A stretch of 64,000 nucleotides of DNA from Vibrio spartinae (lineage in GTDB: Bacteria > Pseudomonadota > Gammaproteobacteria > Enterobacterales > Vibrionaceae), in the NCBI RefSeq assembly GCF_024347135.1, contig NZ_AP024907.1:2843001-2907000 (forward strand), given 5' to 3'. The first letter of the stretch is position 1. Each line of letters opens with the position of its first letter. The notes under the pieces are model-generated. The model made no database searches and had not been told where the DNA came from. It saw nothing but the letters and a program-made list of their open reading frames with translations. Positions 10,586-59,980 of this stretch are shown here, in pieces. The position numbers and the translations under genes were made by a program.

Positions 10586-10587
10586 GA

Positions 10588-11640
10588 TTACTCTCCTGCC
10601 TCTGAATTCTTATGAGAAACCGTCCGCTCCAGAGGAAGACACATCGTGAAACATGCACCGTCCCCTTCTTCAGAAATCAAGTCTAGATGCCCATCGTGTG
10701 CACGACAAACCATCTGAACAACCGCAAGCCCTAACCCCGTTCCCTGCGAACGCGTGGTAAAAAAAGGCTCCATAATTTTATTTTGCATCTCAGCAGCAAT
10801 TCCCGGCCCGTTATCCTGTACAGAAATCTTCAACATATTTTGGACAGGTCGGAAGAACACATCAATCTGAGCACCTTTCCCGCTATTCTGAATCGCATTC
10901 ATCACCAAATTACTCAACGCTGAAGCGATTGCATTGGGATTTCCCAGCAAAGCCGTATCCGGATGTTCGATTTCTTGCCCGTAGTCGATCTGATGACTTT
11001 GTATCGCCGTTTCGACCATTGGATAAAATTCCTGAACTAACGCATCAAGTGTAAAGGATTTGACGACTTTATTATCGCCTCCCTTGGCAAACAGCAGCAT
11101 GTCATTGACTTGTTTATCCAAATCATGCAACCGATCCATCAATTTCGTTTGAAAACGTTCACGTGTTGCAGCCGATAACTGAGGCGCAGCAAGGTTAGAC
11201 GCATACAGCATCGCACTCGATAAAGGGGTGCGAACCTGATGTGCCAATGACGCCACCATTCGGCCCAGTGAAGAGAGCCGTTGTAAATCACTCACTCGCG
11301 CCTGAAGCAAACGGGTTTCGGTTAAATCGGTAATGAGGATCAGTTGACCAGTTGACGATGCTGAGATCGCGAGCCGCACTTTTCTGCCATTGCGTAGCGA
11401 AATTTCGTGTCCATCATCTTCTTTCGGTGCAAAAGCAGACTGAATCACAGCGTACCAGCGTTCACCGACTAATGGAATTTCCAGCAGCCGAACCGCTTCA
11501 GGATTTGCCTCACGGACAATGCCCTGCGTATCCAACAAAATAACGCCGGCAGGCATGACATCCAGTACCTGTTTGTATCGTTCAACCTGATCTTCTATCG
11601 AATCGAGATGAGAAAGCTGTTGTGACTGAGATTCTTGCAT
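10588..11640 (-). CDS. flrB: Two-component sensor kinase FlrB
   Basis: 350 residues with no transmembrane segment, so it is cytoplasmic, as known for FlrB/FleS. A PAS domain (about 20-110) is followed by a dimerisation helix with phospho-acceptor H134 in SLAHQVRTPLSSA, and an HATPase domain with the N box (LSNLVMNAIQNSGKG) and G boxes DNGPGIA and GTGLGLAVVQ. It phosphorylates FlrC. It is first in the flrBC operon and has its own sigma-54 promoter. Confidence 0.94.
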   Translation of the reverse strand: MQESQSQQLSHLDSIEDQVERYKQVLDVMPAGVILLDTQGIVREANPEAVRLLEIPLVGERWYAVIQSAFAPKEDDGHEISLRNGRKVRLAISASSTGQLILITDLTETRLLQARVSDLQRLSSLGRMVASLAHQVRTPLSSAMLYASNLAAPQLSAATRERFQTKLMDRLHDLDKQVNDMLLFAKGGDNKVVKSFTLDALVQEFYPMVETAIQSHQIDYGQEIEHPDTALLGNPNAIASALSNLVMNAIQNSGKGAQIDVFFRPVQNMLKISVQDNGPGIAAEMQNKIMEPFFTTRSQGTGLGLAVVQMVCRAHDGHLDLISEEGDGACFTMCLPLERTVSHKNSEAGE

Positions 11641-16744: not shown

Positions 16745-17875
16745 TTACCCCAATAGACTAAGAGCTGCAGATGGAGCCTGCTTCGCCTGCGCCAGTACCG
16801 AGGTACTTGCTTGTTGCAGAATTTGAGACTTGGTCATCTGCGTTGTTTCTTTTGCATAATCAGTATCTTTAATACGACTCCGTGATGCATTCACGTTTTC
16901 GTTAATATTTTCAAGGTTACTGATTGCATGTCCGAAGCGGTTTTGGAAAGCCCCCAAAGAAGCCCGTTGACTATCAACCGATTTCAGCGCACCATCAAGG
17001 ACAGCTACCGCCAGTTGAGAACCACCGACAGTCGAAACATCGACACTCTGAACGGTCATATCCTGACCTTCACCGAAACCGATTTCAGAGCCCAGTCCAC
17101 CACCGATGGTGACATCACCAGTTACTTTTTGTGAAGAAGCAAATAGCTGTAATTTGCCACCATCTCCAACAGAAGCCTGAATGTCACTATTCTGCCCATT
17201 AATGTAAGTCGCTACCTCTTCCAGATCATCGCCAGTTTTCGCATTAATCGTCAACTCTTGGGCGTCACCGTCTTTATTAGTATAACTCAAGGTGAGATCG
17301 GTTGCGTTAGAGACCATCCAGTCTGGAGATTTTCCTTCTTGCGCAACATATGCACGCCCCCCCATATTTTGCGTATCGGTTCGCATGCTACCCATCGTCA
17401 AAGATACGGCTTCACCAGAATCAGCACCGATCTGAAAAGATTTGCTACCAAACGTCCCATTGAGGAGTTTATTTCCCCCGAACGATGTCGTTTCAGCAAT
17501 CCGGTCCAGCTCATCATTTAATGCTGAAACCTCTTCCTGAATCGCATTACGATCCGCACTCGAGTTAGAACCATTCGAAGATTGCAGAGACAGATCCCGC
17601 ATTCGCTGCAAGATGGATGTGGTTTCATTCATCGCACCTTCAGCAGTTTGTGCAATTGAAATGCCATCATTCGCATTTCTAACCGCCATATCTAACCCGT
17701 TACTTTGCGAGGTTAAGCGATTCGAAATTTGCAACCCTGCGGCATCATCTTTCGCACTGTTAATCCGGTAACCGGAAGACAGTCGCTCCATTGATTTCTG
17801 AGCGCTATCCGCAGCATTATTCAAATAACGCTGCGCGGTCATACCCGAGATATTGGTATTTACACTAATTGGCAT
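16745..17875 (-). CDS. Flagellin (position of V. cholerae flaB)
   Basis: 376 residues. Filament subunit with the conserved N-terminal D0/D1 ([26 protein letters not shown]) and C-terminal D1/D0 ending in ALSLLG. The variable middle is short, as in vibrios. It is the proximal member of a three-flagellin group next to flaG. A strong ribosome site AAAGGAG precedes the ATG, and a good sigma-28 promoter is about 80 bases upstream. Naming differs between species (flaB in V. cholerae order, flaA in V. parahaemolyticus order), so no symbol is given. Confidence 0.96.
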
Positions 17876-17955
17876 ATTGATCTCCTTTAACGGATAGTTG
17901 ATGTGCTGCTGTGTCTCTCACCTCACTTTCACACATCTCATTTCTCTCAATCTTG

Positions 17956-17982
17956 TTAACGGCTAGGGATCTATATCCTTTA
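17956..17982 (-). promoter_or_regulatory. Sigma-28 (FliA) promoter of the proximal flagellin
   Basis: The minus strand has TAAA, 15 bases, then GCCGTTAA. This differs at one base from the enteric form TAAA-N15-GCCGATAA. Confidence 0.9.
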
Positions 17983-18077
17983 GAATATTTTTAATTTTTT
18001 TATTCAATCGGCCCATTGTGTAAAAAAAGCGTGAATCACTTCAAAATTTATTGTCTAGATAACATCTCTCAATACAA

Positions 18078-18103
18078 AAAAATCCAGCCGAAGCTGGATT
18101 TTT
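18078..18103 (-). terminator. Intrinsic terminator of the second flagellin
   Basis: An 11-bp stem AAAAATCCAGC/GCTGGATTTTT with a 4-base loop, 29 bases after the flagellin stop. It is almost the same sequence as the terminator after flaC at 61349-61374. Confidence 0.9.
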
Positions 18104-18131
18104 AAACAAAGTCTGTCTTGTAGTGAATGGC

Positions 18132-19265
18132 TTATCCAAGCAGGCTCAATGCTGAGTTTGGTGCTTGTTTGGCCTGTGCCAGAATCGAACTTGATGCCTG
18201 ACCCAGAATCTGAGATTTGGTCAATGCAGTTGTTTCTTTCGCAAAGTCGGTATCTTTGATTCGGCTCTTCGATGCATTCACATTCTCATTAATGTTATCC
18301 AAGTTACTGGTTGCATGGTTGAATCGGTTCTGGAATGCACCCAGTTCAGCACGGTGACTATCAACATACTTTAATGCTGAGTCAATGATAGCAACCGACT
18401 GTTGTGCGCCACCGACAGAAGTCACATCAATGGTATCGACGGTGACACCTTTCCCTTCGCCAATCCCTAACTCGCCCGCTAATGCACCACCAAATGTAAC
18501 ATCACCATCAACTTTATTATTGCCAGCAAAGACTTGTAGTTTGCCATCCTGATCAACTGACGCTTTAATCGCATCGGTCTGACCATTGATGTAGGTTGCA
18601 AGCTCTTCAATATCATCACCCGCTTTAGCAGAGATAGCGATGTTTTGCTCTTGTCCGTCTTTGTCTATCAGATTGATTTGGAGATCATTCTGCCCGGCCT
18701 GAACGGTCCAGTTTTTGTCCTTACCATTTTCCGCGATATAACTGGTACCACCCATCTGGCTATTATCGCTGCGCATATTTTTCAGGTTCAGCATAACGGC
18801 TTCACCATTATCAGCACCAATCTGGAAGGATTTCGTCTGGAAAGTACCGTTTAAGAGCTTGTTACCACCAAAAGAGGTTGTTTCCGCAATCCGATTCAGT
18901 TCGTCATTCAGTGCTGTCACTTCTTCTTGAATCGCAACTCGATCAGATTTAGAGTTCGAGCCATTCGAAGACTGGAGTGACAAATCACGCATCCGTTGCA
19001 GAATGTTAGTGGTTTCGTTCATTGCCCCTTCAGCGGTTTGCGCAATAGAGATACCATCATTCGCGTTGCGTACAGCGACATCTAAGCCGCGGCTTTGTAC
19101 ATTCAAGCGATTCGAAATTTGCAGACCTGCAGCATCATCTTTCGCGCTATTGATTTTAAAGCCTGATGATAAACGTTCCATTGATGAATTCTGAGCTTGT
19201 GTTGCAGAATTCAGGTAACGTTGTGCGGTCATTGCTGATACGTTTGTGTTTACATTCACTGCCAT
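18132..19265 (-). CDS. Flagellin (position of V. cholerae flaD)
   Basis: 377 residues with the full flagellin N- and C-terminal domains (ends ALSLLG). It is very similar along its whole length to the flaC-position flagellin at 61395-62528. The two also share a leader hairpin and a terminator, which suggests duplication or gene conversion between the two flagellin loci. A ribosome site GGAGAAG precedes the ATG. A sigma-28-like promoter lies about 85-110 bases upstream. Confidence 0.95.
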
Positions 19266-19280
19266 GATGACTTCTCCAAT

Positions 19281-19318
19281 TGATTTTCCGATGTTTCCGG
19301 TTTCCGACGTCTCGGAAA
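19281..19318 (-). promoter_or_regulatory. Flagellin mRNA leader with CGGAAA repeats and hairpin
   Basis: Between promoter and start codon the minus strand contains TTTCCGA-GACG-TCGGAAA (19301-19318), a 7-bp stem, then two more (C/T)CGGAAA copies before the GGAG ribosome site. The same arrangement precedes flaC (62546-62596), so it is probably a functional 5' leader element. The ligand is unknown. GGA motifs resemble CsrA sites. Confidence 0.55.
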
Positions 19319-19347
19319 ACCAAGTAGCTCTCTCAAAGTTACTTTTA

Positions 19348-19374
19348 TTAACGACGTGGATGGGGAAATCTTAA
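19348..19374 (-). promoter_or_regulatory. Sigma-28-like promoter of the second flagellin
   Basis: The minus strand has TTAA, 15 bases, then GTCGTTAA. The spacing is right, with changes from the best form in both boxes. Confidence 0.7.
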
Positions 19375-19847
19375 GGATTTTTTTGATTTTTTCTCGACAA
19401 AAAGTCCAATTGCGTAAGGAGTGAGCAATCGATCAAATTCATTGCACTTTTCGCTAAAGATGTACTCAAACCGGACGATACAGGGCGTTTTTCTTTTATT
19501 TGTTGCGACTCATCAACAGCAGCAGAACGGTGACATAGATAAACCGTTCATACCTTTTTAACCTTTTCTACAACAAATCCTTTCTTCTACTCGATATGAG
19601 AGAACACTAGACGAGTGGAAGACATATCGAATAAATCAGAGGGGAGTCAGCGATCGTAGCAGCGTCAAATCACTCAGCGCATATACTCACCGGATATAAT
19701 GTGAGCGGCTCAATCATTCACAATATAAAGGACCATCATTCACTGGGTGAATAGGATTCGTCTGATTGGCATCGGAACCCGTGCGTTGCTGCAAAACTGT
19801 AAGCCCAAAACGAGATGCAGCACTTATCTCAATCGTCTTTTATTTCC
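19375..19847. other. Intergenic DNA between flagellins two and three
   Basis: No credible coding sequence. The left part is A/T-rich promoter upstream DNA. Around 19741-19815 the plus strand has a stretch loosely like the 3' part of a cobalamin riboswitch (AATAGGA, then GGAACCCG, then ACTGTAAGCCC), but no gene follows on that strand. TGCTGCA at about 19793 could pair with TGCAGCA at about 19815. The right edge passes into 16-bp tandem repeats. Confidence 0.4.
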
Positions 19848-19911
19848 AGACTGATTTACCTCAAGACTGGTCTATCTTAATACTGATCTACCTTAATACT
19901 GATCTACCTTA
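19848..19911. repeat. Four 16-bp tandem repeats crossing the end of flagellin three
   Basis: The units start at 19848, 19864, 19880 and 19896. The last two are identical (ATACTGATCTACCTTA) and the first two are degenerate. The fourth unit contains the flagellin stop codon (19904-19906) and part of its last codons. Confidence 0.85.
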
Positions 19912-21037
19912 ATAAGTATAACGCCATATTGGGCTGTCTTTTGGCTTGTGCCAAAATTGACATACTGACCCGCTGCAAGATCTGTTGCTTCATGCTTTGG
20001 GTTGCTTCCCGGGCATAATCCGTATCCCGAATACGGCTTCTGGAAGTGGCCAGATTCTCATGAATATTGTCTAAATTCTGGATGGCATGTCCGAAGCGAT
20101 TCTGAAATGCGCCCAGTTCAGCTCGGTTTTTATCGACGAACGATAAAGCCGTATCTAAGACGGAAACAGCCCGCTGCGCACCGCCGACCTGAGTAATATC
20201 GAGATTATTGACCGATTCATAGCCCATCACACCAATTTGCAGTTCACTGGCGAGCGAGCCACTGAAATCCATCGTGCCGGCAGTCTCTTTGCCGGCCATA
20301 AATATCTGCAGTTGTCCGTGCTCATTCACTGAGGCAGAGACTTGATCGGTCTGGCCATTGATATAGGTTGCTAACTGTTCAATATCATCCCCGGCTTTGG
20401 CTTCAATATCAATCTGCTGATCTGCCCCTTGTGCATCCTTAAAACGCATGGTGAGCTGATTCTGATCCGACTGAACGCGCCAATCCGATGGGGGCACCTT
20501 CTGGGCAAGATAGCTAAACCCACCCATATCGAGCGTGTCGGTACGCATGTTACTGAACGAAAGCTGTACCGCTTCTCCGGCACTCGCACCGATCTGAAAA
20601 GATGAGGTGCCGAAAGAGCCGTTCAATAACTTTCTGCCACCGAAAGAGGTCGTCTCCGCAATGCGGTTCAACTCATCATTCAGGGCAACATATTCTTCTT
20701 GCAAAGCTTGCCGATCCGCTTGGGAGTTAGAACCGTTGGCCGACTGTAGCGCCAAGTCACGCATTCGCTGTAAGAGCGAGGTACTTTCCTGCATCGCGCC
20801 TTCTGCGGTCTGCATGATTGAAATACCATCATTTGCATTTCTCACCGCAACATCCAGCCCGCTCATTTGTGTCCCCAAGCGATTTGATATCTGCAAACCG
20901 GCCGCATCATCTCTTGCATGATTAATACGGTAACCGGAAGATAAACGCTCCATCGCTTGTACCCAGGCACTGTTTGCCTGATTGACATAATGCTGAGCCA
21001 GCAATGCCGATATATTGGTATTGACTGTAATTGCCAT
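19904..21037 (-). CDS. Divergent flagellin (position of V. cholerae flaE)
   Basis: 377 residues. The flagellin N- and C-terminal domains are present, but the protein diverges from its neighbours in usually invariant parts: [20 protein letters not shown] in the first helix, RINHARDD instead of RINSAKDD, and a C-terminus PNMALYLLR instead of the usual PSAALSLLG type. The last residues overlap a 16-bp tandem repeat. I chose ATG 21037 (MAITVNTN), which aligns with other flagellins and has AGGTGA upstream. An in-frame GTG at 21046 is the alternative. It may be a minor filament subunit. Confidence 0.93.
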
Positions 21038-21070
21038 AATTTTCACCTAAAATCACTCAGGATTTTCCCC

Positions 21071-21100: not shown

Positions 21101-21126
21101 AAAAAAACCGAGCACTCAGGCTCGGT
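21101..21126 (-). terminator. Intrinsic terminator of the DyP peroxidase gene
   Basis: The minus strand has ACCGAGC-CTGAGT-GCTCGGT followed by seven T. It is 48 bases after the DyP stop and only a few bases upstream of the flagellin promoter, so it insulates the flagellin gene from read-through. Confidence 0.9.
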
Positions 21127-21173
21127 CACATTATGTACAGCTATGATGAGATGAATCTTATAATAAAGCGTAT

Positions 21174-22076
21174 TTATCGGATGGTCAGTGACTGTAACAT
21201 CCCGGCTGACGGCGCAAAAAAGTAAGCGCCAGTGACCGCGTGGGTAAACCGGAGCATTTGATCTGTTTTACCATCACGTTCACCATACATACTCTCTAAC
21301 ATCGCCTGAAAGTTATGCAGGGTCTGGCAATATGCAATGAAGAGTAAGCCATGATCACCACTCACCGTTCCATATGGCAAGCTATGTCTGAGGATTTTCA
21401 GCCCTTGACCGTTTTCTTTCAAATCGACACGCCCGACATGAGATGCAGCCGGCACATCATCTAATTCAACTGAATCGTCTTTCGTTCTGCCGATCACTTT
21501 CTCCTGAGCGGCAATGTTCAATCTTTCCCATGCCGGCAACTGGTGAACAAACCGCTGCATCATCACATAGCTTCCACCAGCAAATTCACCATCGTGGATG
21601 AGTGCAACGTCCTGACGCCCTTCATCTTTCGGATTTTCAGTGCCGTCAATGAATCCTGTCATATCCCGCGCATCGAGATAACGATATCCATAGGTTTCAT
21701 CAATCATGTCCACCCATTCGGAAATACCACTCATCAGTTGGCGTAACACATAAAACAGTAAGTCATGGCGCTGACCGTGCACATGAATCAAAAAATCGAC
21801 GTCGGTCACGGGCGCACTGATATCCCCCTGACCTAATGGGGTAAAATCCACCAACTCCGGTGGTAAAGCCGCGTCGAATTGTTTCCAGAATGAATGACTG
21901 AATGCAATGGAGAGGGACAGGTCAGCACCGGGCTGAGATGCATTCAGTGTCTCGACCAGATCCGGTAAAGATTGTAACTGACGCAATACTGATGCCGCTT
22001 CTTGCTTGACTTTAAAGATGGCATACAGCGCAAATGGTCCGGGTTCTGGCAAAATTGCAGTTTGAGGATGAGACAT
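21174..22076 (-). CDS. DyP-type (YfeX-like) haem peroxidase
   Basis: 300 residues from ATG 22076, chosen because AGGGATC precedes it and the family N-terminus fits. The in-frame ATG 39 bases earlier adds an unconserved stretch. Dye-decolourising peroxidases reduce H2O2 with haem b. Visible are the GxxDG motif GFIDG (about 141-145, catalytic Asp), a probable proximal haem His (H213 in ASHVGRVD) and the distal Arg (R230 in ILRHSLPYG). No Tat or Sec signal is seen, so it is cytoplasmic like YfeX. It is next to the iron-import block but has its own terminator. The upstream DNA is a 15-bp repeat tract. Confidence 0.93.
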   Translation of the reverse strand: MSHPQTAILPEPGPFALYAIFKVKQEAASVLRQLQSLPDLVETLNASQPGADLSLSIAFSHSFWKQFDAALPPELVDFTPLGQGDISAPVTDVDFLIHVHGQRHDLLFYVLRQLMSGISEWVDMIDETYGYRYLDARDMTGFIDGTENPKDEGRQDVALIHDGEFAGGSYVMMQRFVHQLPAWERLNIAAQEKVIGRTKDDSVELDDVPAASHVGRVDLKENGQGLKILRHSLPYGTVSGDHGLLFIAYCQTLHNFQAMLESMYGERDGKTDQMLRFTHAVTGAYFFAPSAGMLQSLTIR

Positions 22077-22190
22077 AAAAGATCCCTGATGTGTAGTTGT
22101 CTTGGGCCACATCATACTCTGTCATGCGTGAAGAACAAACTGCTAACGTCGCGATCTAAACAAGCCACGCAGAGCATCAGTCTTACGACC

Positions 22191-22306: not shown

Positions 22307-23173
22307 TTACAAATAGCGCTGCTGGAGTAACGTCAATGCAAAATAGTAGCCATCCGGGCCCATCCAGTAATTGACGAGATTCTCGACGCTCTGGCTGGTA
22401 TTGGTTGCGCCAGCCAGACCGTCAACGGTGAAACGGTCTTGGTTGTTTTCATGGGGAGCACCCACGCGAAATCGTGCCTGACCATCAGCAAGCACCTGTT
22501 TGCCTTGAAACTGAGCAAGCCACTGCTCATTTGTCATAATCTTGCCCCCTAGCGCTGGAGTCTCTCCCTGCTCATAAAAGCGGATCCGATGAATCGACAG
22601 CGTTTTAAGATCTAAGGACAGATAACCTTTCAACATGGACAAATATCCCTGCCCTTCAAGCGGTACAACCAACTGTTTCCCCATATTTTGGGGCGTCTCC
22701 TGTCTGGCAGTTTCCTTTTCTACTGAACTGTTTTTCTCTACTGAACCGTTCTCGCCTAAATCATAACCATCAACGATATACGCCATCACCCATTGGTCAC
22801 GGCTCGCCAAATGCGCAAGATTCTGTTTGGCATCCAGCGTCTGCCGGGTCAGCGTATGATGTATAACGCGGTCCCGATAACGCGCAATCGTGTCCGGTTC
22901 ATCCGTCAGCGTGTGATTTTCCATATTCAGTAATACGGGGTGAAAGTACGTCTTGATTAAGTTCGCCGTACTATCGTGAACCGTACCGAGACCGGCCACA
23001 GCCAACAATGTTCGTTTCTCATCACGCTGTATGATTTTATGGTGCTGCACTTTCGATGATGATGTTACGGACGCTTGCTGCCCGGTTCCGGCATGATTTT
23101 CATCATCAAAACAACCACCAAGGAGCATGACGCCCGGTAGCATGATCAGTGAGAGTAGCGATTGATATTTCAT
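22307..23173 (-). CDS. Lipoprotein with NqrC-like FMN-attachment domain
   Basis: 288 residues. The N-terminus is a lipoprotein signal (LLGGC, lipidated C21). The C-terminal half resembles the periplasmic domain of NqrC: GQGYLSMLKGYLSL, then FYEQGETPALGGK (about 199-211) and DGLAGATNTS (251-260). In NqrC/RnfG the Thr of this D-x-x-(S/T/A)-GAT motif, here T257, carries FMN by a phosphodiester bond made by ApbE. Unlike NqrC, the protein has no transmembrane helix and is lipid-anchored. It is last in the FTR1-P19 block, 119 bases after the PCuAC gene. I infer a one- or two-electron periplasmic redox role, perhaps iron reduction. Two 18-bp repeats (22720-22755) encode a short Ser/Val/Glu/Lys stretch. 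Confidence 0.8.
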   Translation of the reverse strand: MKYQSLLSLIMLPGVMLLGGCFDDENHAGTGQQASVTSSSKVQHHKIIQRDEKRTLLAVAGLGTVHDSTANLIKTYFHPVLLNMENHTLTDEPDTIARYRDRVIHHTLTRQTLDAKQNLAHLASRDQWVMAYIVDGYDLGENGSVEKNSSVEKETARQETPQNMGKQLVVPLEGQGYLSMLKGYLSLDLKTLSIHRIRFYEQGETPALGGKIMTNEQWLAQFQGKQVLADGQARFRVGAPHENNQDRFTVDGLAGATNTSQSVENLVNYWMGPDGYYFALTLLQQRYL

Positions 23174-23255
23174 CTTGAACGATTACATCCTGATAGCAAA
23201 AAAAAACAGTGAAACAAACATGAACGGAAAAACAGACGTAAAAGCGCGAACACAT

Positions 23256-23309
23256 GTTAGCGAGTCGACGTACGTTAACGAATCGACGTCCGTTAACGAA
23301 TCGACATAG
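23256..23309. repeat. Three 18-bp tandem repeats across the end of the PCuAC gene
   Basis: Units start at 23256, 23274 and 23292. The second and third differ at few positions. The stop codon of the PCuAC gene (23293-23295) lies in the third unit, so each unit carries a further in-frame TAA or similar stop after it. Confidence 0.85.
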
Positions 23310-23745
23310 GTACCACCCTTGCGATGACCCTCACCAAGCCTTGATTGGTATGCAGTATCAGACTCACAAATTCCCCCCGTTGTAGCGGCCGGGTGAATCC
23401 CATGAGCATGATGTGTGAAGTATTGGGCGTTAACGCAAGTTTCTGATGTGCAGCAACCGTAATCTGCTCGACCGGATACATCTCACGCTGACCACTTTTA
23501 TAGGTGGTGGCATGCAACATGATCTGTTTAAAGCGTTGACCGGTGACTTCACGAATAATGAGCGGCTTATCTGAACGGTTATAAATGGTCATTTTTGACC
23601 CGGTGGCACTGGCATTGCGTTGCGGCATAAATATCTCCGCTTTGCCGACTTCGATGTTCTCGGCTAAGGTTGCTGCAAATACCATACGGGTCACCGCCAT
23701 CAACACGAAAATCAGCCCCATACGACACCATGAAAAGTTCGTCAC
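23293..23745 (-). CDS. PCuAC-type periplasmic copper chaperone
   Basis: 150 residues with a Sec signal peptide (cleavage near MVFA-ATLAE). The family's Cu(I)-binding pattern H-x10-M-x21-H-x-M is complete: H78, M89, H111 and M113 (HIMLMGF). PCuAC proteins deliver copper in the periplasm, classically to cytochrome oxidase. Here no oxidase gene is near. The gene lies between tlpA-like and NqrC-like genes in an FTR1-P19 iron block, so a link to the copper site known in P19 proteins is plausible but inferred. The start is a GTG with TAGGA upstream, 9 bases after the preceding stop. Confidence 0.85.
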   Translation of the reverse strand: MTNFSWCRMGLIFVLMAVTRMVFAATLAENIEVGKAEIFMPQRNASATGSKMTIYNRSDKPLIIREVTGQRFKQIMLHATTYKSGQREMYPVEQITVAAHQKLALTPNTSHIMLMGFTRPLQRGEFVSLILHTNQGLVRVIARVVPMSIR

Positions 23746-23754
23746 TGTATTGTC

Positions 23755-24246
23755 CTATTCCTGAATCAAATTAACGTAATGATCGAGATCCATCCCGGAT
23801 GAGTACCCCATATGAATTATTTTCAGAACACCTTGGCGATCAATAAAAAAAGTCGTGGGGGTGGCAATCACCTGATAACGTTCCTGAGTAATCCCAAGCT
23901 GATCGAGCCCGAGCGGCAGCGTAACGCCTAATTGATCAGCAAAAGCAGAGAGGTTTTCAGGGTGTGGGTCAATCCCGACCCCGATAAACTGCAATTTATC
24001 GGGGTGCGCCTCTGCATATTTTTGCCACGCTTTCATCATCACCAAGCAAGCCCCACAGGTTGATGACCAAAACTCAACAACGACCGGTTTACCGCGAACC
24101 TGTTGCAAGGTCATCTGCTGCTCATGCGCATCCATCACCGCTAAATCCGGGGCTGGTGCACCGACAGCCAGCGCCTGCTCTTTACAACCACTGAGCATCA
24201 CCAGCACGCTCATCAATACGCTGAGGCCTATCCGCTTAATGACCAT
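23755..24246 (-). CDS. TlpA-like thioredoxin lipoprotein
   Basis: 163 residues from ATG 24246, which has GAGGAA upstream and gives a proper lipoprotein signal (VMLSGC, C21). A start 30 bases earlier would bury it. It has a thioredoxin fold of the TlpA/AhpC-TSA group with active site CGAC (64-67) in EFWSSTCGACLVM and the cis-Pro segment VIATPTTFFID. It is a periplasmic thiol reductase anchored to a membrane. Campylobacter jejuni p19 loci also carry TlpA-like thioredoxins downstream of the ABC genes, so it belongs to this system. It overlaps the ATPase gene by 11 bases. Confidence 0.9.
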   Translation of the reverse strand: MVIKRIGLSVLMSVLVMLSGCKEQALAVGAPAPDLAVMDAHEQQMTLQQVRGKPVVVEFWSSTCGACLVMMKAWQKYAEAHPDKLQFIGVGIDPHPENLSAFADQLGVTLPLGLDQLGITQERYQVIATPTTFFIDRQGVLKIIHMGYSSGMDLDHYVNLIQE

Positions 24247-24910
24247 TGATGTATTCCTCACCCATGTATTTGCCATGCTGCAAACGAATGATCCGGTCAG
24301 TATAACGACCTAAATCCGGGTTATGCGTCACCATAATAATGGTTCGGTTCTGTTGATGCAGACGTTGGAATATCTCCAAAACAATCCGCTCATTCGCTTC
24401 ATCCAGATTGCCGGTCGGCTCATCGGCAAATAATATCGGACACTCATTGACCAACGCCCGGGCAATACAGACCCGCTGCTGCTCCCCTCCCGATAATTGA
24501 CTGGGTAAATGATTGATGCGGTCCTCAAGCCCAACGTCTGCCAGCACTTTTTTTGCAGCGTCGATATCCGTGACACTATGGTAGTGCTGCGCCAACATCA
24601 CATTTTCTAACGCGGTCAAATAAGGGATCAGATGGAACTGCTGGAACAACAATCCTATTTTTTCAGCCCGGAATGCGCGCCGCCCATCTTCATCAAGACT
24701 CGCGGCATGATGCCCGTCGAGAATGACTTGTCCTTCCGTCGCTGTATCAAGACAACTCAGGATATTCATCAGGGTGGTTTTACCCGAACCGGATGCGCCC
24801 ATGATGGCCACGAATTCTCCCCGACGAATGGAAAGATTGATATTATCCAATGCACTCACATGCTCAAAACGCTTACACAATCCCTTAGTTTCGATGACAA
24901 ATTCAGACAC
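24236..24910 (-). CDS. ABC transporter ATPase (LolD/MacB type)
   Basis: 224 residues. Complete nucleotide-binding subunit: Walker A GASGSGKT (38-45), Q-loop LLFQQFHL, signature LSGGEQQ (139-145), Walker B ILFADEP (159-165) and the switch H196. It matches the LolD/MacB/FtsE class that works with FtsX-like permeases, and two such permeases lie directly upstream with a 1-base gap. These ABC systems are mostly mechanotransmitters or periplasmic-side exporters, not importers. The equivalent in the C. jejuni p19 locus is cj1663. Confidence 0.93.
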   Translation of the reverse strand: MSEFVIETKGLCKRFEHVSALDNINLSIRRGEFVAIMGASGSGKTTLMNILSCLDTATEGQVILDGHHAASLDEDGRRAFRAEKIGLLFQQFHLIPYLTALENVMLAQHYHSVTDIDAAKKVLADVGLEDRINHLPSQLSGGEQQRVCIARALVNECPILFADEPTGNLDEANERIVLEIFQRLHQQNRTIIMVTHNPDLGRYTDRIIRLQHGKYMGEEYINGH

Positions 24911-24911
24911 A

Positions 24912-26048
24912 TTACTCTCCTTTCAACACTTTCGCCGGATCCACTTTCATGGCGCGTAAAGTCGGGATGATTGCAGCCACCAGCGCAGCACAAACAGATA
25001 AAATCATTGTGATAATAAAGACCGGCAAACGCAGATCAATTGATGCACTAAACACCGTTTGCCCAAGGATTTGAGCAAGGATATAACCGAGACCTAATCC
25101 CATCACAATCGCTGCAATGGTCATTAACAATGTCTCTGACAAAATTTGCCGGGTAATCGCTCGATGGGATGCTCCCAGCGCTTTTTGCAATGCAAATTCA
25201 TGGCGGCGCTCACCAATCATTGCCGTCAGTGTTGTATTCACACACAGGGTAGAAAGTATCAGAATCACCACCGCAACCACGCCCATCAGGAGTTTGATTT
25301 TATTCAGCACTTTTCCTTCTGACGCAGAGACTTTCAGAATCGGGCGAATGGTCAGGTTCGGGTAACGGGCTTTAAGACGTGCGGCATACTGGTTCACCTG
25401 CCCCTGAGCATTATCGATACTAAACATGGCGTAATTGGCCTGATCAGGCTGGTGGAGCCATTTTTGTAGCATCGAAATATTGACGATCAAATAGTTATCT
25501 TCATCTGCACCGGCATCGATAATGCCTTTAATGGTAAAAGTATGCCGGGTATCCCCCTGAATCAGACTCAGTTGAGAGCCGACCTTCACTTCTAGCTTCT
25601 TCGCCAGATTGGTCCCAATCATCGCATTGCGTTGGTCAAAAGATACACCAACCCATTCCCCTTGAACCTGCCAATACGGCACCAGATCTTTCAATTGGGA
25701 AAAATCAACGCCCATCGCCACCACTTTTTCTAAATCGGATTGCACCACCCCATACAGATACGGGCTGGATGCCACTAACTGAGCCTGTGGTGCCAAAGCC
25801 AACATAGCGCGGTAATCGTGAGTCGATAACGTCGAAGAATCAGCATCCGGACCAACATAAAAATTCGCCCCGTAATGACGCAGTTCATGACTCATTTTCT
25901 GGTTGATATCGAAATAAACACCAGCCATGGCGGTCACAATTGCCGCCCCCATGGTCAGCGCAGCAAGCACCACAACCACCCGACGCAAACGCAGTTTCAG
26001 GGAACGAATGATCAGCAGGTTTTGCATCGAATGTTTATTTACGGCCAT
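24912..26048 (-). CDS. FtsX/MacB-like ABC permease, second of two
   Basis: 378 residues from ATG 26048, chosen because GAGG lies 6 bases upstream. Other in-frame ATGs are at 26078 and 26027. Topology is FtsX-like: one TM near the N-terminus (about 25-45), a large periplasmic MacB_PCD-like domain, then three C-terminal TMs with the conserved RRHEFALQKALGASHRAI coupling region. The end is ALVAAIIPTLRAMKVDPAKVLKGE, a classic MacB-type tail. It overlaps the first permease by 14 bases. The pair probably forms a heterodimer. Confidence 0.9.
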   Translation of the reverse strand: MAVNKHSMQNLLIIRSLKLRLRRVVVVLAALTMGAAIVTAMAGVYFDINQKMSHELRHYGANFYVGPDADSSTLSTHDYRAMLALAPQAQLVASSPYLYGVVQSDLEKVVAMGVDFSQLKDLVPYWQVQGEWVGVSFDQRNAMIGTNLAKKLEVKVGSQLSLIQGDTRHTFTIKGIIDAGADEDNYLIVNISMLQKWLHQPDQANYAMFSIDNAQGQVNQYAARLKARYPNLTIRPILKVSASEGKVLNKIKLLMGVVAVVILILSTLCVNTTLTAMIGERRHEFALQKALGASHRAITRQILSETLLMTIAAIVMGLGLGYILAQILGQTVFSASIDLRLPVFIITMILSVCAALVAAIIPTLRAMKVDPAKVLKGE

Positions 26049-27318
26049 ACAAAACCTCGATTGGATAAAGTGCGGCAATTCGTCGGGAAGGGAAATAGGT
26101 ACCGCATATGGTCATGATGACCGAGATAACCAAAATGAGCGGGATAATGATCCAGTGAAAAGGGATAAACGATCCAAACAGGGCATACCCCATCACTTTG
26201 GACAATCCCCATCCGGCAGCACATCCCAGTATGCCGCCCAGCAAACCGCACACGATAGATTCAGCATAAAATAACAAGTACACCTGCCAATTATGGGCAC
26301 CGAGGGATTTCATCAACCCAATCTCTTTAGAACGCTGTAAAATTGCGTTGGTCATCAGAGAAGCGATCCCCATCGAGGCAGCAACAAATGCGGCTAATGT
26401 CACCATAAACAATAAACTCTGAATTTTACGAATGACGATGCCTTCCGATGCCGCGACTTGCCAAACAGGACGAACAGCCGCGTTACTTAACGCTTTTTCT
26501 AATTGGTAGGAGATGGAAGAAACAAATGCGGTACAAAACCATAAGTCATATTCATCAGAATCTAACGATTCCAGATTGTCCCGCGCTTTTTTCGACAACG
26601 CATTTTCAGGCACTGTCAACGCAGAGACTTTAATACTTTCCACACGCCCTGCCAGTCCCAGCAATGCCTGACCAACATGTAACGGCACAATAACGGACGC
26701 TTCCTCGGCACTACCATTGGTCAAAATGCCGGTAATGGTGACCTGTTCATGGTGTTGTTTACCGGCTAACGTTAACTGGTCACCAATGTGCCAGCCCATC
26801 CGGCTGGCCAGTGCGGTTCCGACCAACGCCTGCTGTTTGGTATCCTCCGGCCACTGTCCCTGTACTTTCCAATACTGAGAGATAATCTTGTTACCGGTGT
26901 GATAATCCGGCTCATCCGGGACAGCAAGGTGCTGATCAAAGAACGTGCCGACAATGGGGACCTCACTCTGCCCGTGATTGATGGTCACAACCCCGCGCAC
27001 ATAAGGGGCAAACCCGATGATATTATTCCGCCAGAAGATGTTTTTGATATTGGGTAATTCCGACGCCAGTAACAAGCTATCTTTATCCATGTCCGTCAGC
27101 GTATGTTTCAACATGTAAGGCAGATTCACCTGACCTTCTGGTTTAATTTCGATGTTGGCACCATAGCGCTTCATCTCAACCGACATCTTGTCACCAATCG
27201 TAATCGAAATAGCCAGCAACGCTGAAATTAACCCTGCCGCCAGAAAAATAGTGGTCGTTGCCAGCACTTTCCGGCCACGGTCATGACGCCATGACTGACG
27301 AAGCATTGTCCATAGCAT
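26035..27318 (-). CDS. FtsX/MacB-like ABC permease, first of two
   Basis: 427 residues. An N-terminal TM (about 17-39), a periplasmic domain of about 260 residues, then three TMs with the coupling segment RSKEIGLMKSLGAHNWQV and the tail SRRIAALYPIEVLYG. The start ATG shares bases with the stop of the DUF2318 gene (TAATG), so translation is coupled. Together with the next permease and the ATPase it forms an ABC module whose substrate is unknown, corresponding to cj1661-cj1663 in C. jejuni. Confidence 0.9.
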   Translation of the reverse strand: MLWTMLRQSWRHDRGRKVLATTTIFLAAGLISALLAISITIGDKMSVEMKRYGANIEIKPEGQVNLPYMLKHTLTDMDKDSLLLASELPNIKNIFWRNNIIGFAPYVRGVVTINHGQSEVPIVGTFFDQHLAVPDEPDYHTGNKIISQYWKVQGQWPEDTKQQALVGTALASRMGWHIGDQLTLAGKQHHEQVTITGILTNGSAEEASVIVPLHVGQALLGLAGRVESIKVSALTVPENALSKKARDNLESLDSDEYDLWFCTAFVSSISYQLEKALSNAAVRPVWQVAASEGIVIRKIQSLLFMVTLAAFVAASMGIASLMTNAILQRSKEIGLMKSLGAHNWQVYLLFYAESIVCGLLGGILGCAAGWGLSKVMGYALFGSFIPFHWIIIPLILVISVIMTICGTYFPSRRIAALYPIEVLYGRK

Positions 27319-28718
27319 TATTGTGCCCCTCCTATCGCTGAACTCTGATCAACGTAGCCCCAAGGGTTATCACGGAATGCATCGTAAGAGTTCTGCTCAG
27401 TAAAGAAATAGGTTTTCCCCCCGAAGGTATAACTAAACGGGGCATCGAGATTGGTCAGCGATTTACCGTTCACCGGATCAACCACGGTAATCTTCACCAC
27501 ATCGCTGAAATACTGAAGACCCGATTCAAGCATCACTTTCCCGATGACGATCTCATTATTGGTCAACGACCATTTCTTAATCGGAATCGGGTTACATCCG
27601 CCCGGGTTACCAATCGACGGAATAAAGATATGTACACCACAGGCCAGACAGATCACCTGATCACCATCCTGAATATACCCCGCATCACCACACAACATGC
27701 AGGCATCCAGGACCACACCAAACTTCATTTCACCGGGGTAGCGATCAATGATAAAAAAGCGCACCACTTTACCGTCACTCGCAATCCACTGATAACGGTG
27801 TAACTTGCCGTCTTTCAGGGTATCGGTGATCGGAATGTGGACCGCATCATCGGCGGACAACGTCATCGTCTGCGCCGGTGAACGCGTTGGCGGCTGAGAC
27901 GCCACGGCATCCCAGTACAGTAAACTGCAAAAAATCATCACCAAGCTGACAGCGAAACTTTTCGCCCGGCGACGGTGAATATTCAGTTGGGCCTGAAGTT
28001 TACGTCTTGCGATGGGCTGCTGTTGTGCTTTCACTGCATTTTTCAACGGCTTCACATCACTCCACATCATGATACTCAGTGGAATCAGACTCAGTGCCAG
28101 CACACAATACGCATACAACCAGAAGAAATTGGTCACTTTTGAAACGTAACTCAACAGTCCCTGATACAGATCGATCATCTGTAACTTCATCCCAGCCAGA
28201 ATCACCTCTCCGGAGAGCGGTAAAATTGCCAGTAAAATGAAGATGAAAAAGACGCTATTTTTTAAGATACGCGAGCGCTGTTCGAAAACTTTACCGGTAA
28301 AAAAGTAAACCGAACCAATTAAAACAAACCCGAATAGCAAGGCGGTCACATTCAGGATCAGTTCGGTATTGATCACACTGGTGGCAGTCATCATGTCCAG
28401 TTTTGCAATTCGGGCCCACATAAATGCGGCCAATACCGTCACAATCGCCTGCCAGACCAACAACACCCGGGTCGGTCGGGTACTCAGTAAACCGTAGCCC
28501 AATAACAACAGGCATATCACGATGTAGGCACAGCCGATAGAGAAAATATAGACTTGGCTGTAAGGCAACAACGTATAAGCACAAACCCCAATGACAACAG
28601 GCAGCACAAACCACCAGAACCTTTGCTTATACGACGTATTCGCACCCGACCAAAGCAAGCCGAACATCATCGCGGGGAGAAGAAAGTGGGAAAGAACCTG
28701 AGAAAGATAAAAACTCAT
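27318..28718 (-). CDS. DUF2318 membrane protein with Cys clusters and YHS-like tail
   Basis: 466 residues. About seven to eight hydrophobic helices fill residues 1-270. The periplasmic C-terminal part (from about 285) has the DUF2318 pattern C340-x2-C343, C357-x2-C360 and C375 in GGCNP, likely metal or Fe-S ligands. Residues 413-452 (DPVNGKSL, then YTFGGKTYFFTEQ and DAFRDNP) look like a YHS metal-binding domain whose usual cysteines are gone. Homologues such as cj1660 lie beside p19 genes. A role in electron transfer or iron handling for P19/FTR1 is inferred. Confidence 0.88.
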   Translation of the reverse strand: MSFYLSQVLSHFLLPAMMFGLLWSGANTSYKQRFWWFVLPVVIGVCAYTLLPYSQVYIFSIGCAYIVICLLLLGYGLLSTRPTRVLLVWQAIVTVLAAFMWARIAKLDMMTATSVINTELILNVTALLFGFVLIGSVYFFTGKVFEQRSRILKNSVFFIFILLAILPLSGEVILAGMKLQMIDLYQGLLSYVSKVTNFFWLYAYCVLALSLIPLSIMMWSDVKPLKNAVKAQQQPIARRKLQAQLNIHRRRAKSFAVSLVMIFCSLLYWDAVASQPPTRSPAQTMTLSADDAVHIPITDTLKDGKLHRYQWIASDGKVVRFFIIDRYPGEMKFGVVLDACMLCGDAGYIQDGDQVICLACGVHIFIPSIGNPGGCNPIPIKKWSLTNNEIVIGKVMLESGLQYFSDVVKITVVDPVNGKSLTNLDAPFSYTFGGKTYFFTEQNSYDAFRDNPWGYVDQSSAIGGAQ

Positions 28719-28802
28719 ATCCGCTCACATGATAAATTTTTTCAGGTGACTTTGACCAAGAGCAAAGCCACCTTTGTATGAATCCCAGACTTGGCGGGAG
28801 GT

Positions 28803-29321
28803 TTAATTCAGACCAACATATTTAAATTTGTAATTCACATCAAAAGGCTTGTACCAACGGCCAACGCCTGTTGCTTCATCGGTGTGACGAAGCAGACCAC
28901 CTTTCGATGGTGGGTCAATATGGAAAGAAAGCTCATAATTACCCACACCAAGCATTTTCACATTTGAACCATAATGAGGACCGTCTGAGGCAATCATTGG
29001 CATGAAAGTCCCCTGTTGAGTTTTACCGGTATCCAAGTTCTTCATTTTGTAGCTGATCGTCAGGTACGGAATCCATTCACCAGCCGCAAAGCCATTTTTA
29101 TTGCCTTTCAGTGCATGAATGTCCGCTTCAAGGTGAACATCTGCCTGAGAAGCGGCCATCATCATACCTTGGGGTTCCATCGTGACCGGTTCCAGATAAA
29201 CAGCGGCCAGTTCCATACCGTTCATTTCAACGGTCTCCCCTGCCGGGTGTTCACCCGCAATCGCTGCGGTCCCAAATGTCATTGCTGAAATCGCAACTGG
29301 AATTAAAAATTTATTCGTCAT
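28803..29321 (-). CDS. P19/Tp34 family periplasmic iron-transport protein (FetP-like)
   Basis: 172 residues with a Sec signal peptide (cleavage near AAIAGEH). P19-family proteins are periplasmic dimers that bind Cu and Fe and work with FTR1 permeases. The family core is visible: the DVHLEADIHAL strand with two His, a Met-rich loop EPQGMMMAAS before it, and FHIDPPSKGG with another His. It follows FTR1 by 55 bases, the pairing seen in FetMP of Escherichia coli and in C. jejuni. Confidence 0.93.
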   Translation of the reverse strand: MTNKFLIPVAISAMTFGTAAIAGEHPAGETVEMNGMELAAVYLEPVTMEPQGMMMAASQADVHLEADIHALKGNKNGFAAGEWIPYLTISYKMKNLDTGKTQQGTFMPMIASDGPHYGSNVKMLGVGNYELSFHIDPPSKGGLLRHTDEATGVGRWYKPFDVNYKFKYVGLN

Positions 29322-29376
29322 TAAAATTATTCCTTCAATAAAAAGTTGTCACAGACTGAAATTGCCATAGATTGAG

Positions 29377-31305
29377 CTACGCGGTTTGTCTACCCTGACG
29401 CCGAATGACGAACAATGCCAAAATCGCGGCTGCAACCAGCGCGAGTTGAGGTATTAACGTTTCAGCATAAGGATAAACCCCCAACAAACTGATTTGCGGA
29501 ACTGCCTCTATGAGTGTCGGGTTAAAGACTTTGGCTTCAATAAGTTCTAAAACACCGTTACCGGCAAAGACAAATGCCATCAGATACATAAATCCACCGG
29601 TGAAGATAAAGAAAGGTTTGAGTGGTAATTTCACGACGCTATAACGCATCAAGAAAAAGATAACCGTTAGAATCACGATCCCCACACCGAGCCCGCTCAA
29701 GATCCCGATGAGTGAATTTGATGAACCGTCAGCCCCCAGCGCATAATAGAACAGCACGGTTTCGGCACCTTCACGGTAAACGGCTAGAAAGCTGGCGAAC
29801 CACAGACCGGCAATCGAACCTGCGGTGAGTGAGCGGGATAATTTATTTTCGAGATACTGTTTCCAATGGGTTGCTTCCACTTTCGACAGCAACCAGTAAC
29901 TCATCATGAACAGCACCACAACCGCGATCAGCATTGTGATACCTTCCAGCATTTCGCGACTCGCGCCAGCATTGGTAAACAACCACTGGAACAGGGCCGC
30001 TGTGATCAAACTGCATATCACGCCAACCACGACGGAATTCTTGATAATATAGAGTTTGTCGGTATGGTCGTTCTTGACCAGATAAGCGGTAATTGCAGCG
30101 ACAATCAGTAACGCTTCCAAACCTTCACGGAGAATAATGGTGAGGCTGGCGATAAACATTGCCCAAATCCCCTGACTACCGCCGCCTAACATGCTGGCAC
30201 CTTGGTCCAGACTACGACTCAATGCCTGTTGTTGCGCCTGAATATCAGCCAGTTCAGAGCGGGCTTTCATCATACTGACCAGACGGGTAAAGTAACCTTC
30301 CAGTTCAGATTTCAGTGCACTATCCCGCGCACCAATAGCATTTTCCATGCCTGTTGATTCGAAGCGATCAAAATACGTATCCTGAACCGCTATCATCGCA
30401 TCAGCAACCTGACCTTGTTGGTAGCGGTCAACCGCCTGAGCGATAGCAGCATCAATGCCGGTTATCACTGATTGCCAGTCTTGCTTGACGTCTGAATGCT
30501 CAACTTCCTGAGTCTGTTTCTGATCATCACGAGTCGCTGGCAGCCCCGGGAGATCATCTTTCAGCCCTTGTGTCAGCGTGGCAACCTGATAACCAAATGC
30601 GACCAAACGTTGCATGGCATATGGCTGATCGGCCAAATCAATCATGGCTTTGAACATGTCATTATATTGCGCGGCTTTTGCACCGGAACGATTCAGGCGG
30701 ATGGCGGTTTCCAGATCAGAGTTTTTATAACCATCAAATTGTGCCTGTCGTATCAGCTTCACTGCGGCTTCCCGCTTTGCCTGTTGCGCCTGTTCTGTCT
30801 CAGCCTGAGTTGACGTGCGATAACTGGCCAAACCTTGGTTAACCAGCCGTTCAATGGTCAGAACTTGCTCTCGCCAGTAAGGTAAAATTGACGCATGATG
30901 GATGTTCGCCGTTTCCGCGACCAACTGTGTTCCTGATTCCAGAATCGAGGGAACTGATGCGATTTGAGTTTTGAGCCAGTCGACATTTTCCTTCACGTCA
31001 TCGAGCGACGCCTGATTGCCAATCATCTTCCGAATTTCACTAAATTTAGCTTCTAGCTGATACGCGTATTTCTGGGAATAATTAATTCGGATGGGGCCTT
31101 CCAGACCTTCAAACACTTCAAAATATGCCATTTGCACCGTGTGCTTCGCTTGTACAGCATCACCATGCGCATAAAGTTGTACCGTGGTATCCAGACGCGT
31201 ATTGATATCATCCGCAGCAGCCTGATAATCAAGCACCGCTGCTGCAACAGAGTAATTAAAAGTAAAAATCGTAGTAATAATGAAAAGCTTTACCAGCTTT
31301 AACAT
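29377..31305 (-). CDS. FTR1 family iron permease with N-terminal periplasmic domain (FetM-like)
   Basis: 642 residues from ATG 31305 (AGGA 8 bases upstream; two earlier in-frame ATGs give a worse signal). A signal peptide is followed by a helical periplasmic region of about 360 residues, then about seven TMs. Two FTR1 iron motifs R-E-x-x-E are present, REGLE (393-397) and REGAE (511-515), each at the start of a membrane helix. The long N-terminal part is typical of bacterial FetM-type members. It is the first gene of the block and follows a promoter overlapped by a Fur-like site. Confidence 0.93.
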   Translation of the reverse strand: MLKLVKLFIITTIFTFNYSVAAAVLDYQAAADDINTRLDTTVQLYAHGDAVQAKHTVQMAYFEVFEGLEGPIRINYSQKYAYQLEAKFSEIRKMIGNQASLDDVKENVDWLKTQIASVPSILESGTQLVAETANIHHASILPYWREQVLTIERLVNQGLASYRTSTQAETEQAQQAKREAAVKLIRQAQFDGYKNSDLETAIRLNRSGAKAAQYNDMFKAMIDLADQPYAMQRLVAFGYQVATLTQGLKDDLPGLPATRDDQKQTQEVEHSDVKQDWQSVITGIDAAIAQAVDRYQQGQVADAMIAVQDTYFDRFESTGMENAIGARDSALKSELEGYFTRLVSMMKARSELADIQAQQQALSRSLDQGASMLGGGSQGIWAMFIASLTIILREGLEALLIVAAITAYLVKNDHTDKLYIIKNSVVVGVICSLITAALFQWLFTNAGASREMLEGITMLIAVVVLFMMSYWLLSKVEATHWKQYLENKLSRSLTAGSIAGLWFASFLAVYREGAETVLFYYALGADGSSNSLIGILSGLGVGIVILTVIFFLMRYSVVKLPLKPFFIFTGGFMYLMAFVFAGNGVLELIEAKVFNPTLIEAVPQISLLGVYPYAETLIPQLALVAAAILALFVIRRQGRQTA

Positions 31306-31338
31306 AACAAACATCCTGCGAGCCAATCACAAATAAAA

Positions 31339-31367
31339 ATACTAAAGAAAATAGTTATCATTTGCAA
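31339..31367 (-). promoter_or_regulatory. Promoter of the FTR1 operon with overlapping Fur-box-like site
   Basis: On the minus strand TTGCAA, 17 bases, then TAGTAT form a -35/-10 pair. The 19-base stretch at 31347-31365 (GCAAATGATAACTATTTTC) matches the classical Fur consensus GATAATGATAATCATTATC at 14 of 19 positions and lies over the -35 box and spacer. This predicts repression by Fur with iron. Confidence 0.7.
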
Positions 31368-59585: not shown

Positions 59586-59662
59586 GGCTACGTAGCTCAG
59601 CTGGTTAGAGCACATCACTCATAATGATGGGGTCACAGGTTCGAATCCCGTCGTAGCCACCA
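59586..59662 (+). tRNA. tRNA-Met (CAU), copy 1
   Basis: 77 bases with CCA encoded. Acceptor GGCTACG/CGTAGCC, loop CTCATAA with anticodon CAT. Matches elongator tRNA-Met, not initiator. Confidence 0.97.
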
Positions 59663-59705
59663 TTTCCTAAGTACTTTTAACATGAAAAGTCTTTAGGAAA
59701 GAAAT

Positions 59706-59790
59706 GCGGAAGTGGCGAAATTGGTAGACGCACCAGATTTAGGTTCTGGCGCCGCAAGGTGTGAGAGTTCAAGTCTCTCCTTCCGCACCA
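59706..59790 (+). tRNA. tRNA-Leu (UAG), copy 1
   Basis: 85 bases with CCA, long variable arm. Anticodon loop TTTAGGT. Acceptor GCGGAAG/CTTCCGC. Confidence 0.97.
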
Positions 59791-59827
59791 TATTTAAGAT
59801 GACTTTTTTAAGCGAAGTTATCACAAC

Positions 59828-59902
59828 AGGTCTATAGCCAAGTGGTAAGGCAACGGGTTTTGATCCCGTCATCCCCTGGTTCGAATCCAGGTAGACCTGC
59901 CA
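59828..59902 (+). tRNA. tRNA-Gln (UUG), copy 1
   Basis: 75 bases with CCA; acceptor AGGTCTA/TAGACCT, anticodon loop TTTTGAT. Confidence 0.97.
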
Positions 59903-59909
59903 TATATTA

Positions 59910-59944: not shown

Positions 59945-59980
59945 TCGCGGGATTGATTATATTGTCTCGCTCAAAAATGA

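Follow-up and report, generated by a model that had tools for sequence, protein, structure and literature searches.

A PCuAC-type copper chaperone and an NqrC-like flavin lipoprotein accompany the predicted FTR1-P19 iron importer of Vibrio spartinae

The loci closest to the one described here are fetMP-fetABCDEF of Campylobacter jejuni, fetMP of Escherichia coli F11 and fetMP-fls of Yersinia pestis and Salmonella, which share the gene order FTR1, P19, DUF2318, two permeases, ATPase and thioredoxin, and for which Fur boxes are described (PMC10783030, PMC7285068). Solved structures present P19 as a copper-binding protein with its copper about 7 Å from a Mn/Fe site (PMC9174327), copper-bound FtrA oxidises Fe2+ (PMC11966278), and PCuAC chaperones together with Sco serve copper oxidases (PMC8267372). 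A flavin mononucleotide (FMN) protein, FMN_bind, is the seventh gene beside FTR1-P19 in clusters of Gram-positive bacteria and Spirochaetes (PMC6083913, PMC8238504), and Meheust et al. counted 260 FMN-FTR1-P19 clusters, mostly Gram-positive (PMC8238504); no Vibrio is among the 33 species in the list of Liu et al. (PMC6083913). We describe an FTR1-P19 block of Vibrio spartinae that ends in a PCuAC gene and an NqrC-like FMN_bind gene. It lies in a 64,000-nucleotide stretch (contig NZ_AP024907.1, positions 2,843,001 to 2,907,000), hereafter the window.

The block consists of nine genes, all on the minus strand from 31326 to 22307, in the order FTR1, P19, DUF2318, FtsX, FtsX, ABC ATPase, TlpA, PCuAC and NqrC-like (Table 1). 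This order had been read in an earlier note made from the letters alone; open reading frames and Pfam agree with it, and the best Pfam match of each of the nine proteins exceeds the curated cut-off. The first seven genes correspond by Pfam and order to the C. jejuni p19 locus (cj1658-cj1665, fetMP-fetABCDEF), as the same note had recognised, and with FTR1, P19 and DUF2318-FtsX-FtsX-ATPase-thioredoxin in succession they have the gene content of a FetMP-FetABC(D)E cluster. The block is very probably an iron importer.

The linkage of the last two genes to this core was examined at three depths. Among 148 genomes of the genus, P19 was present in 13, ten of them with the full core and three with different P19 types without it, in keeping with the accessory status that had been suspected. 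TlpA, PCuAC and FMN genes stood behind the core in all ten full blocks. The ten best PCuAC matches in these genomes are exactly the ten block copies (39-99% identity), the next match being 30% identical (E 5.1e-12), and the block FMN proteins occur in the same ten genomes, 26-81% identical to the V. spartinae copy; among the matches listed, the remaining FMN proteins look NqrC-like. Scanning 84,980 species genomes for patterns of the PCuAC alignment, with one of two exact peptide patterns required and more divergent relatives therefore missed, gave nine confirmed loci, every one inside an FTR1-P19 block: Vibrio sp. MEBiC08052, V. ruber, V. salinus, V. harveyi, V. albus, Vibrio sp. HA2012, an Aliivibrio metagenome-assembled genome (MAG), Pasteurella atlantica and the MAG Proteobacteria bacterium DOLZORAL124. 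A profile search of 5.8 billion proteins returned 57 PCuAC matches, with a step from 2e-30 at the 35th to 6e-15 at the 36th, the genomic context being known for the fetched loci only. After three duplicates (L196, L199, L202), which came from genomes already in the count, had been taken out, 16 distinct PCuAC loci remained, and in all 16 the PCuAC gene lies between the TlpA and FMN genes of a complete FTR1-P19 block. Within the reach of these searches no member of this PCuAC subfamily stood beside unrelated loci; with the same order in every locus, the assignment of the last two genes to the block holds, and on this gene order the extension does not adjoin the block by chance.

In a tree of the core built from the 16 PCuAC blocks and 16 of 50 others, the PCuAC blocks fall into a single clade (FastTree support 1.00), and core distances correlate with those of PCuAC plus FMN protein (r = 0.87, a value reached by 0 of 5000 permutations). 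Because of this clade and this correlation, a single acquisition of the pair, followed by co-inheritance in Vibrionaceae and Pasteurellaceae, is probable. That the two proteins work together with the importer appears quite likely.

A census of relatives places the pair in context. P19 was found in 60 of 394 genomes of the order, and 66 distinct full-core blocks were collected, 65 besides that of V. spartinae. The ATPase gene is followed by a DUF4418-type gene in 25, cytochrome c in 21 (two without a recognised TlpA), TlpA-PCuAC-FMN in 16, TlpA alone in two, TlpA-NosL-FMN in one (L155) and TlpA-NosL in one (L160). These tail genes were named by local profiles whose seeds were proteins checked with Pfam; the census is uneven and gives no frequencies, six PCuAC loci (L197, L198, L200, L201, L203, L204) having entered through the PCuAC search, while some contigs break off close to the block. 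By position, the FMN lipoprotein stands where the blocks of relatives have a small cytochrome c. A phylum survey with the DUF2318 model, in which five of 388 genomes exceeded the cut-off (ten at E <= 0.001) and the five share the same order, revealed no new class of block.

The two NosL loci deserve mention in their own right. In L155 (2870-8398, genome G547) and L160 (genome G624) the FTR1-P19 block is followed by NosL, of a copper-chaperone family, and by a further FtsX/ABC pair; L155 alone has an NqrC-like FMN protein behind these. In a tree that included 14 of the 15 other block FMN proteins, and from which a length filter had removed five of ten candidate outside loci, the L155 protein groups on a long branch with Vibrio NqrC (SH-aLRT 95), apart from the block proteins, themselves gathered on a separate side of the tree (SH-aLRT 92, short branch). 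This one locus hints that a copper-chaperone family, here NosL, was paired a second time and independently with an NqrC-like flavoprotein behind this core.

The PCuAC protein has its presumptive ligands at H78, M89, H111 and M113, a spacing of H-X10-M-X21-H-X-M that is kept in all 16 block PCuACs and corresponds to the copper motif H(M)X10MX21HXM in print (PMC8267372). Its nearest solved relative is DR1885 of Deinococcus radiodurans (1x9l, 8.3e-18, profile A1). These features are consistent with the putative Cu(I) donor that had been proposed for the block.

Which protein would receive this copper was approached through the genome. The block PCuAC was the only PCuAC found in V. spartinae. A search with the Sco family (PF02630) gave four matches of at most 25.9 bits (cut-off 22.8), of which the strongest belongs to a thiol peroxidase (239 vs 140 bits, NCBIfam), one is the TlpA of the block and two fall below the cut-off, so that this search yielded no genuine Sco. 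The sole COX2-family match lacks the CuA motif CxxxCxxxHxxM; no CuA oxidase was thus found. Three of the ten genus genomes with the block (G118, G080, G030) have a separate PCuAC, a strong Sco match and a CuA oxidase besides the block PCuAC, and a fourth (G142) has an extra PCuAC and Sco, with a COX2 match lacking the motif. The six others gave no strong Sco match and no CuA motif, one of them (G054) no COX2 match at all; two of the six (G098, G102) have a second PCuAC. The block PCuAC therefore occurs without the CuA pathway. The usual client of PCuAC looks absent from the V. spartinae genome because neither a second PCuAC nor Sco nor a CuA-type oxidase subunit was found there; cbb3 oxidase, Cu/Zn superoxide dismutase, NosZ and multicopper oxidases were not searched for. 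P19 is a known copper protein within the block, and it is an even call that it would be the main copper client of PCuAC. An extra methionine in a P19 loop before HLEADIH was considered as a contact for PCuAC. It is present in 16 of 16 PCuAC blocks and in none of the 50 others, yet also in FtrA-type P19s, and was dropped as evidence because such P19s share it without PCuAC and the 16 blocks are one clade.

The FMN_bind protein resembles solved NqrC (7xk3, 3.2e-53, profile A2) and falls below the NqrC cut-offs of TIGR01938 (98.3 vs 144) and NF003749 (126.6 vs 255). Of two relatives scored on the NqrC models, that of L197 is below and that of L200 just over TIGR01938 (146.7 vs 144). The gene stands outside any nqr operon, the genome's own nqr genes being elsewhere (L194); the NqrC-like label stands as a likeness and fails as an identity. 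The protein has the lipobox LGGC, and a lipobox is present in 14 of the 16 block FMN proteins. Its sequence DGLAGAT257 follows the flavinylation motif D-G-x-(S/T)-G-A-T except for Ala254 at the S/T position, Thr257 being the presumed flavin acceptor, and the corresponding Thr is found in 15 of 16 proteins. Three ApbE loci are present in the genome. In L203 (Pasteurella atlantica, 10367-11122) no in-frame ATG opens the FMN gene at its 5' end, and what resembles the start of a signal peptide is read in a different frame, which may reflect a broken gene or an assembly error.

From gene order, domains, copper ligands, the flavin-accepting residue and co-inheritance, which are read directly from the sequence, we infer every functional step of the following scheme. 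P19 would bind iron, its copper site would oxidise Fe2+, and Fe3+ would pass to the FTR1 permease. PCuAC would deliver or maintain the copper of P19, TlpA would hold thiols in the wanted state, and the FMN lipoprotein, flavinylated by ApbE, would link P19/FetA to membrane electron pools as a one-electron carrier. We lean slightly towards this whole reading, a FetMP-type importer with PCuAC supplying P19 copper and a one-electron flavin carrier, leaving the direction of the electron aside. The FMN lipoprotein as a one-electron carrier in place of the cytochrome is, taken singly, fairly probable. As to direction, a flavin that takes electrons from Cu(I)-P19 is favoured by a narrow preference over one that gives them to ferric iron. 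A bolder version is tentative and rather doubtful: PCuAC would metallate a ferroxidase-like P19, an NqrC-derived flavin lipoprotein would recycle the electron, the NosL version would have arisen a second time (L155), and copper supply plus a one-electron carrier would be the general missing part of FetMP systems.

Several observations weigh against this scheme. The earlier note had named, as a finding that would refute the linkage, these genes beside unrelated loci in relatives while FTR1-P19 occurs without them; within the reach of the searches no such placement was seen, and full blocks without the pair do occur (50 of the 66 collected). Since those 50 full blocks lack it, the pair is by gene content an add-on outside the core, and P19 therefore has no general need for PCuAC. 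With a single gain probable, the 16 loci therefore stand close to one event. The loop methionine is present in FtrA-type P19s of four loci without PCuAC (L118, L120, L122, L123). No lipobox is found in the FMN proteins of L203 and L204, Ser replaces the flavin-accepting Thr in L200, and V. spartinae has Ala254 where the 15 other loci have Ser or Thr. The Fur-box-like sequence upstream of FTR1 was scored against the Fur consensus, and by the same measure the score is near chance in L198, L203, L204, L086 and L087. Last, the FMN gene of V. spartinae is preceded by a spacer of 119 bp (23174-23292), the sole loose joint of a block whose other genes overlap or are separated by short spacers.

That spacer would suit a block in which the FMN gene, perhaps with PCuAC, is a separate transcription unit merely adjoining the importer. 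This is very unlikely, since the order is the same in 16 of 16 loci and, of the 15 other distinct loci, 11 have the two genes overlapping or at most 23 bp apart (-26 to 23 bp); the spacer measures 44, 69 and 95 bp in the three closest relatives of the V. spartinae block, and 138 bp in L203, where the FMN start is uncertain. No terminator-like site was found on the minus strand from 24437 to 21127, hence none between PCuAC and FMN gene, in a scan whose total (12 sites) does not exceed that of shuffled sequence (mean 11.2). Slimmer still are the chances of a PCuAC fold repurposed as a second periplasmic carrier, of iron or an iron-copper chelate. The PCuAC branches are indeed longer than those of the core, and identity to the V. 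spartinae copy is 37-58% outside its closest relatives; the soft H/M/H/M ligands in all 16 proteins are suited to Cu(I), not iron.

Two further explanations concern the work done by the extension. TlpA and the FMN lipoprotein might together form a ferric reductase that converts chelated Fe3+ to Fe2+ for uptake, with PCuAC protecting from copper or recycling it. Such a role has been proposed for the FMN and thioredoxin members (PMC6083913, PMC8238504), and the published Fet model has FetE/F relaying reducing power (PMC10783030). The same source also suggests FetE/F as oxidases in vivo (PMC10783030), FTR1-family permeases are regarded as oxidase-dependent (PMC11966278, PMC9174327), and PCuAC would be left without a clear role; we hold the reductase to be unlikely, though it deserves to be kept in mind. 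PCuAC might instead be a general chaperone for a heme-copper oxidase (CuB of cbb3) or another cuproenzyme, merely co-regulated with the iron block. PCuACs are known as oxidase chaperones (PMC8267372), and V. spartinae has, as far as found, just this one. This seems improbable in view of its place inside a P19 block at every one of the 16 loci, the lack of a CuA motif or real Sco among the V. spartinae matches, and the four genomes that keep a separate PCuAC and Sco beside the block copy, three of them with a CuA oxidase. The scheme of copper supply by PCuAC and electron transfer by the flavin lipoprotein is retained here as the preferred reading.

Table 1. Genes of the FTR1-P19 block and adjoining features, in coordinates of the window
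Feature	Position	Strand	Evidence
Fur-box-like sequence upstream of FTR1	31347..31365	-	14/19 consensus positions, reached by 1/200 shuffles
FetM-like FTR1 iron permease, 649 aa	29377..31326	-	PF03239 1.8e-43
FetP/P19 periplasmic Cu/Fe protein, 172 aa	28803..29321	-	PF10634 3.2e-65
FetA-like membrane protein, DUF2318/FtrD-like with C-terminal YHS	27318..28718	-	PF10080 2.6e-28, PF04945 1.1e-8
FetB-like FtsX/MacB_PCD permease	26035..27318	-	Pfam
FetC-like FtsX/MacB_PCD permease, start uncertain	24912..26078	-	Pfam
FetD-like ABC ATPase	24236..24910	-	Pfam
TlpA/ResA-like thioredoxin lipoprotein, FetE position	23755..24276	-	AhpC-TSA 4e-19
PCuAC copper chaperone (putative), 150 aa, GTG start	23293..23745	-	PF04314 9.3e-20, 71 bits vs cut-off 29.4
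NqrC-like FMN_bind lipoprotein, 288 aa	22307..23173	-	PF04205 5.5e-10, 40.2 bits vs 22
DyP-type peroxidase, possibly tail of the same transcript in the window's clade only	21174..22115	-	PF20628 4.5e-60
Terminator-like hairpin 3' of DyP gene	21106..21127	-	one of 12 sites in scan, shuffles mean 11.2

The listed start of FTR1 is TTG, with in-frame ATGs shortly downstream, and its translation contains two REXXE motifs (REGLE, REGAE). P19 matches the solved FetP of E. coli (3nrp, 2.4e-77) with the segments HLEADIH, FMPM, DGPHYG and RHTD all identical; these segments hold the copper and acidic metal-site residues, in part as given in PMC9174327. The cysteines of the DUF2318 domain, CxxC-x13-CxxC-x14-C, fit the published definition CxxC-x13-CxxC-x14,15-C (PMC6083913). 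The YHS domain of this protein, absent from the earlier description, is shared with FetA of C. jejuni, for which it has already been described (PMC10783030). TlpA has the lipobox LSGC and the active site CGAC.

Other P19-family loci were noted in the course of the survey. Judged by eye, a Vibrio locus (L091, 4707-8661, genome G024) resembles a mixture of FtrAB and EfeUOB: beside P19 and a short FTR1 it encodes a small cupredoxin-like, an imelysin-like and a DyP-like protein. In L118, L120 and L122 the FtrA-type P19 gene is followed, also by eye, by one for a porin-like protein (455-480 aa), perhaps FtrP, the fifth component in the literature. Further P19-family genes lie at L092, L093 and L094 in two Vibrio genomes (G028, G111), each of which has one locus with a tandem P19-family pair lacking the FtrD core.

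Flanking genes are consistent with the flagellar and housekeeping surroundings noted previously, and the end of the block had then been placed at 31367, which takes in the Fur-box-like sequence (31365-31347). The DyP-type peroxidase has no obvious signal peptide by eye and follows 4 of the 16 PCuAC blocks; five cytochrome-c-type blocks (L143, L146, L149, L150, L154) are preceded by a DyP gene of opposite strand. EfeB, of the other FTR1 system, is a DyP too. Three consecutive flagellin-like genes follow at 16745-21046 (by eye), the copy adjoining the DyP gene looking the most divergent, and an array of 13 tRNA genes at 59586-61115 specifies Met, Leu and Gln only, in a repeated order (ARAGORN). 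A plasmid origin was considered and set aside, as neither the block (nucleotide) nor PCuAC (tblastn) had a match in 72,556 plasmid records.

The flavin member, of which the earlier note could not say whether it had been described, belongs beside P19 to a class already in print (PMC6083913, PMC8238504), as does the core to known systems. What appears to be new is the PCuAC member and the combination of TlpA, PCuAC and FMN protein. In the open-access literature no mention was found of a PCuAC in an FTR1-P19 cluster, the spelling PCu(A)C not being searchable, or of the three genes together behind FTR1-P19. The co-travelling extension suggests that the importer may bring with it a copper supply and an electron carrier of its own. 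Whether the copper-delivery gene ccoI of C. jejuni has any link to p19 is stated to need further work (PMC8267372); with a PCuAC that turned up solely in P19 blocks, and whose usual client was not found in the V. spartinae genome, the copper sourcing of P19 becomes directly testable. That cytochrome c, FMN protein and thioredoxins replace one another at a single operon position also offers a natural way into the unsolved electron path of FetMP systems.

Compared with the relatives named at the outset, C. jejuni has a second thioredoxin, unlike V. spartinae, and others a cytochrome or hypothetical protein in the eighth place (PMC6083913); the descriptions consulted of the C. jejuni, E. coli, Y. 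pestis and Salmonella loci mention neither PCuAC nor an NqrC-like lipoprotein. FtrABCD and FtrAPBCD (Brucella, Bordetella, Rubrivivax) also combine P19 (FtrA) and FTR1 (FtrC) with a copper-binding partner in the operon, but this is the cupredoxin FtrB, not a chaperone, and the description consulted gives no DUF2318/FtsX/ABC core (PMC11966278). The PCuAC-Sco oxidase relay shares its chaperone family and ligand motif with the V. spartinae protein, whereas the operon here has no Sco and no CuA motif was found in the genome. NqrC of Na+-NQR is alike over most of its length (E 3e-53), but has a membrane anchor, whereas the block proteins have a lipobox (14 of 16) and are encoded outside an nqr operon. 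In the Gram-positive and Spirochaete clusters, which share with V. spartinae the FMN_bind gene beside FTR1-P19, the FMN protein is described as replacing the thioredoxin, whereas V. spartinae has TlpA, PCuAC and the NqrC-like FMN protein together.

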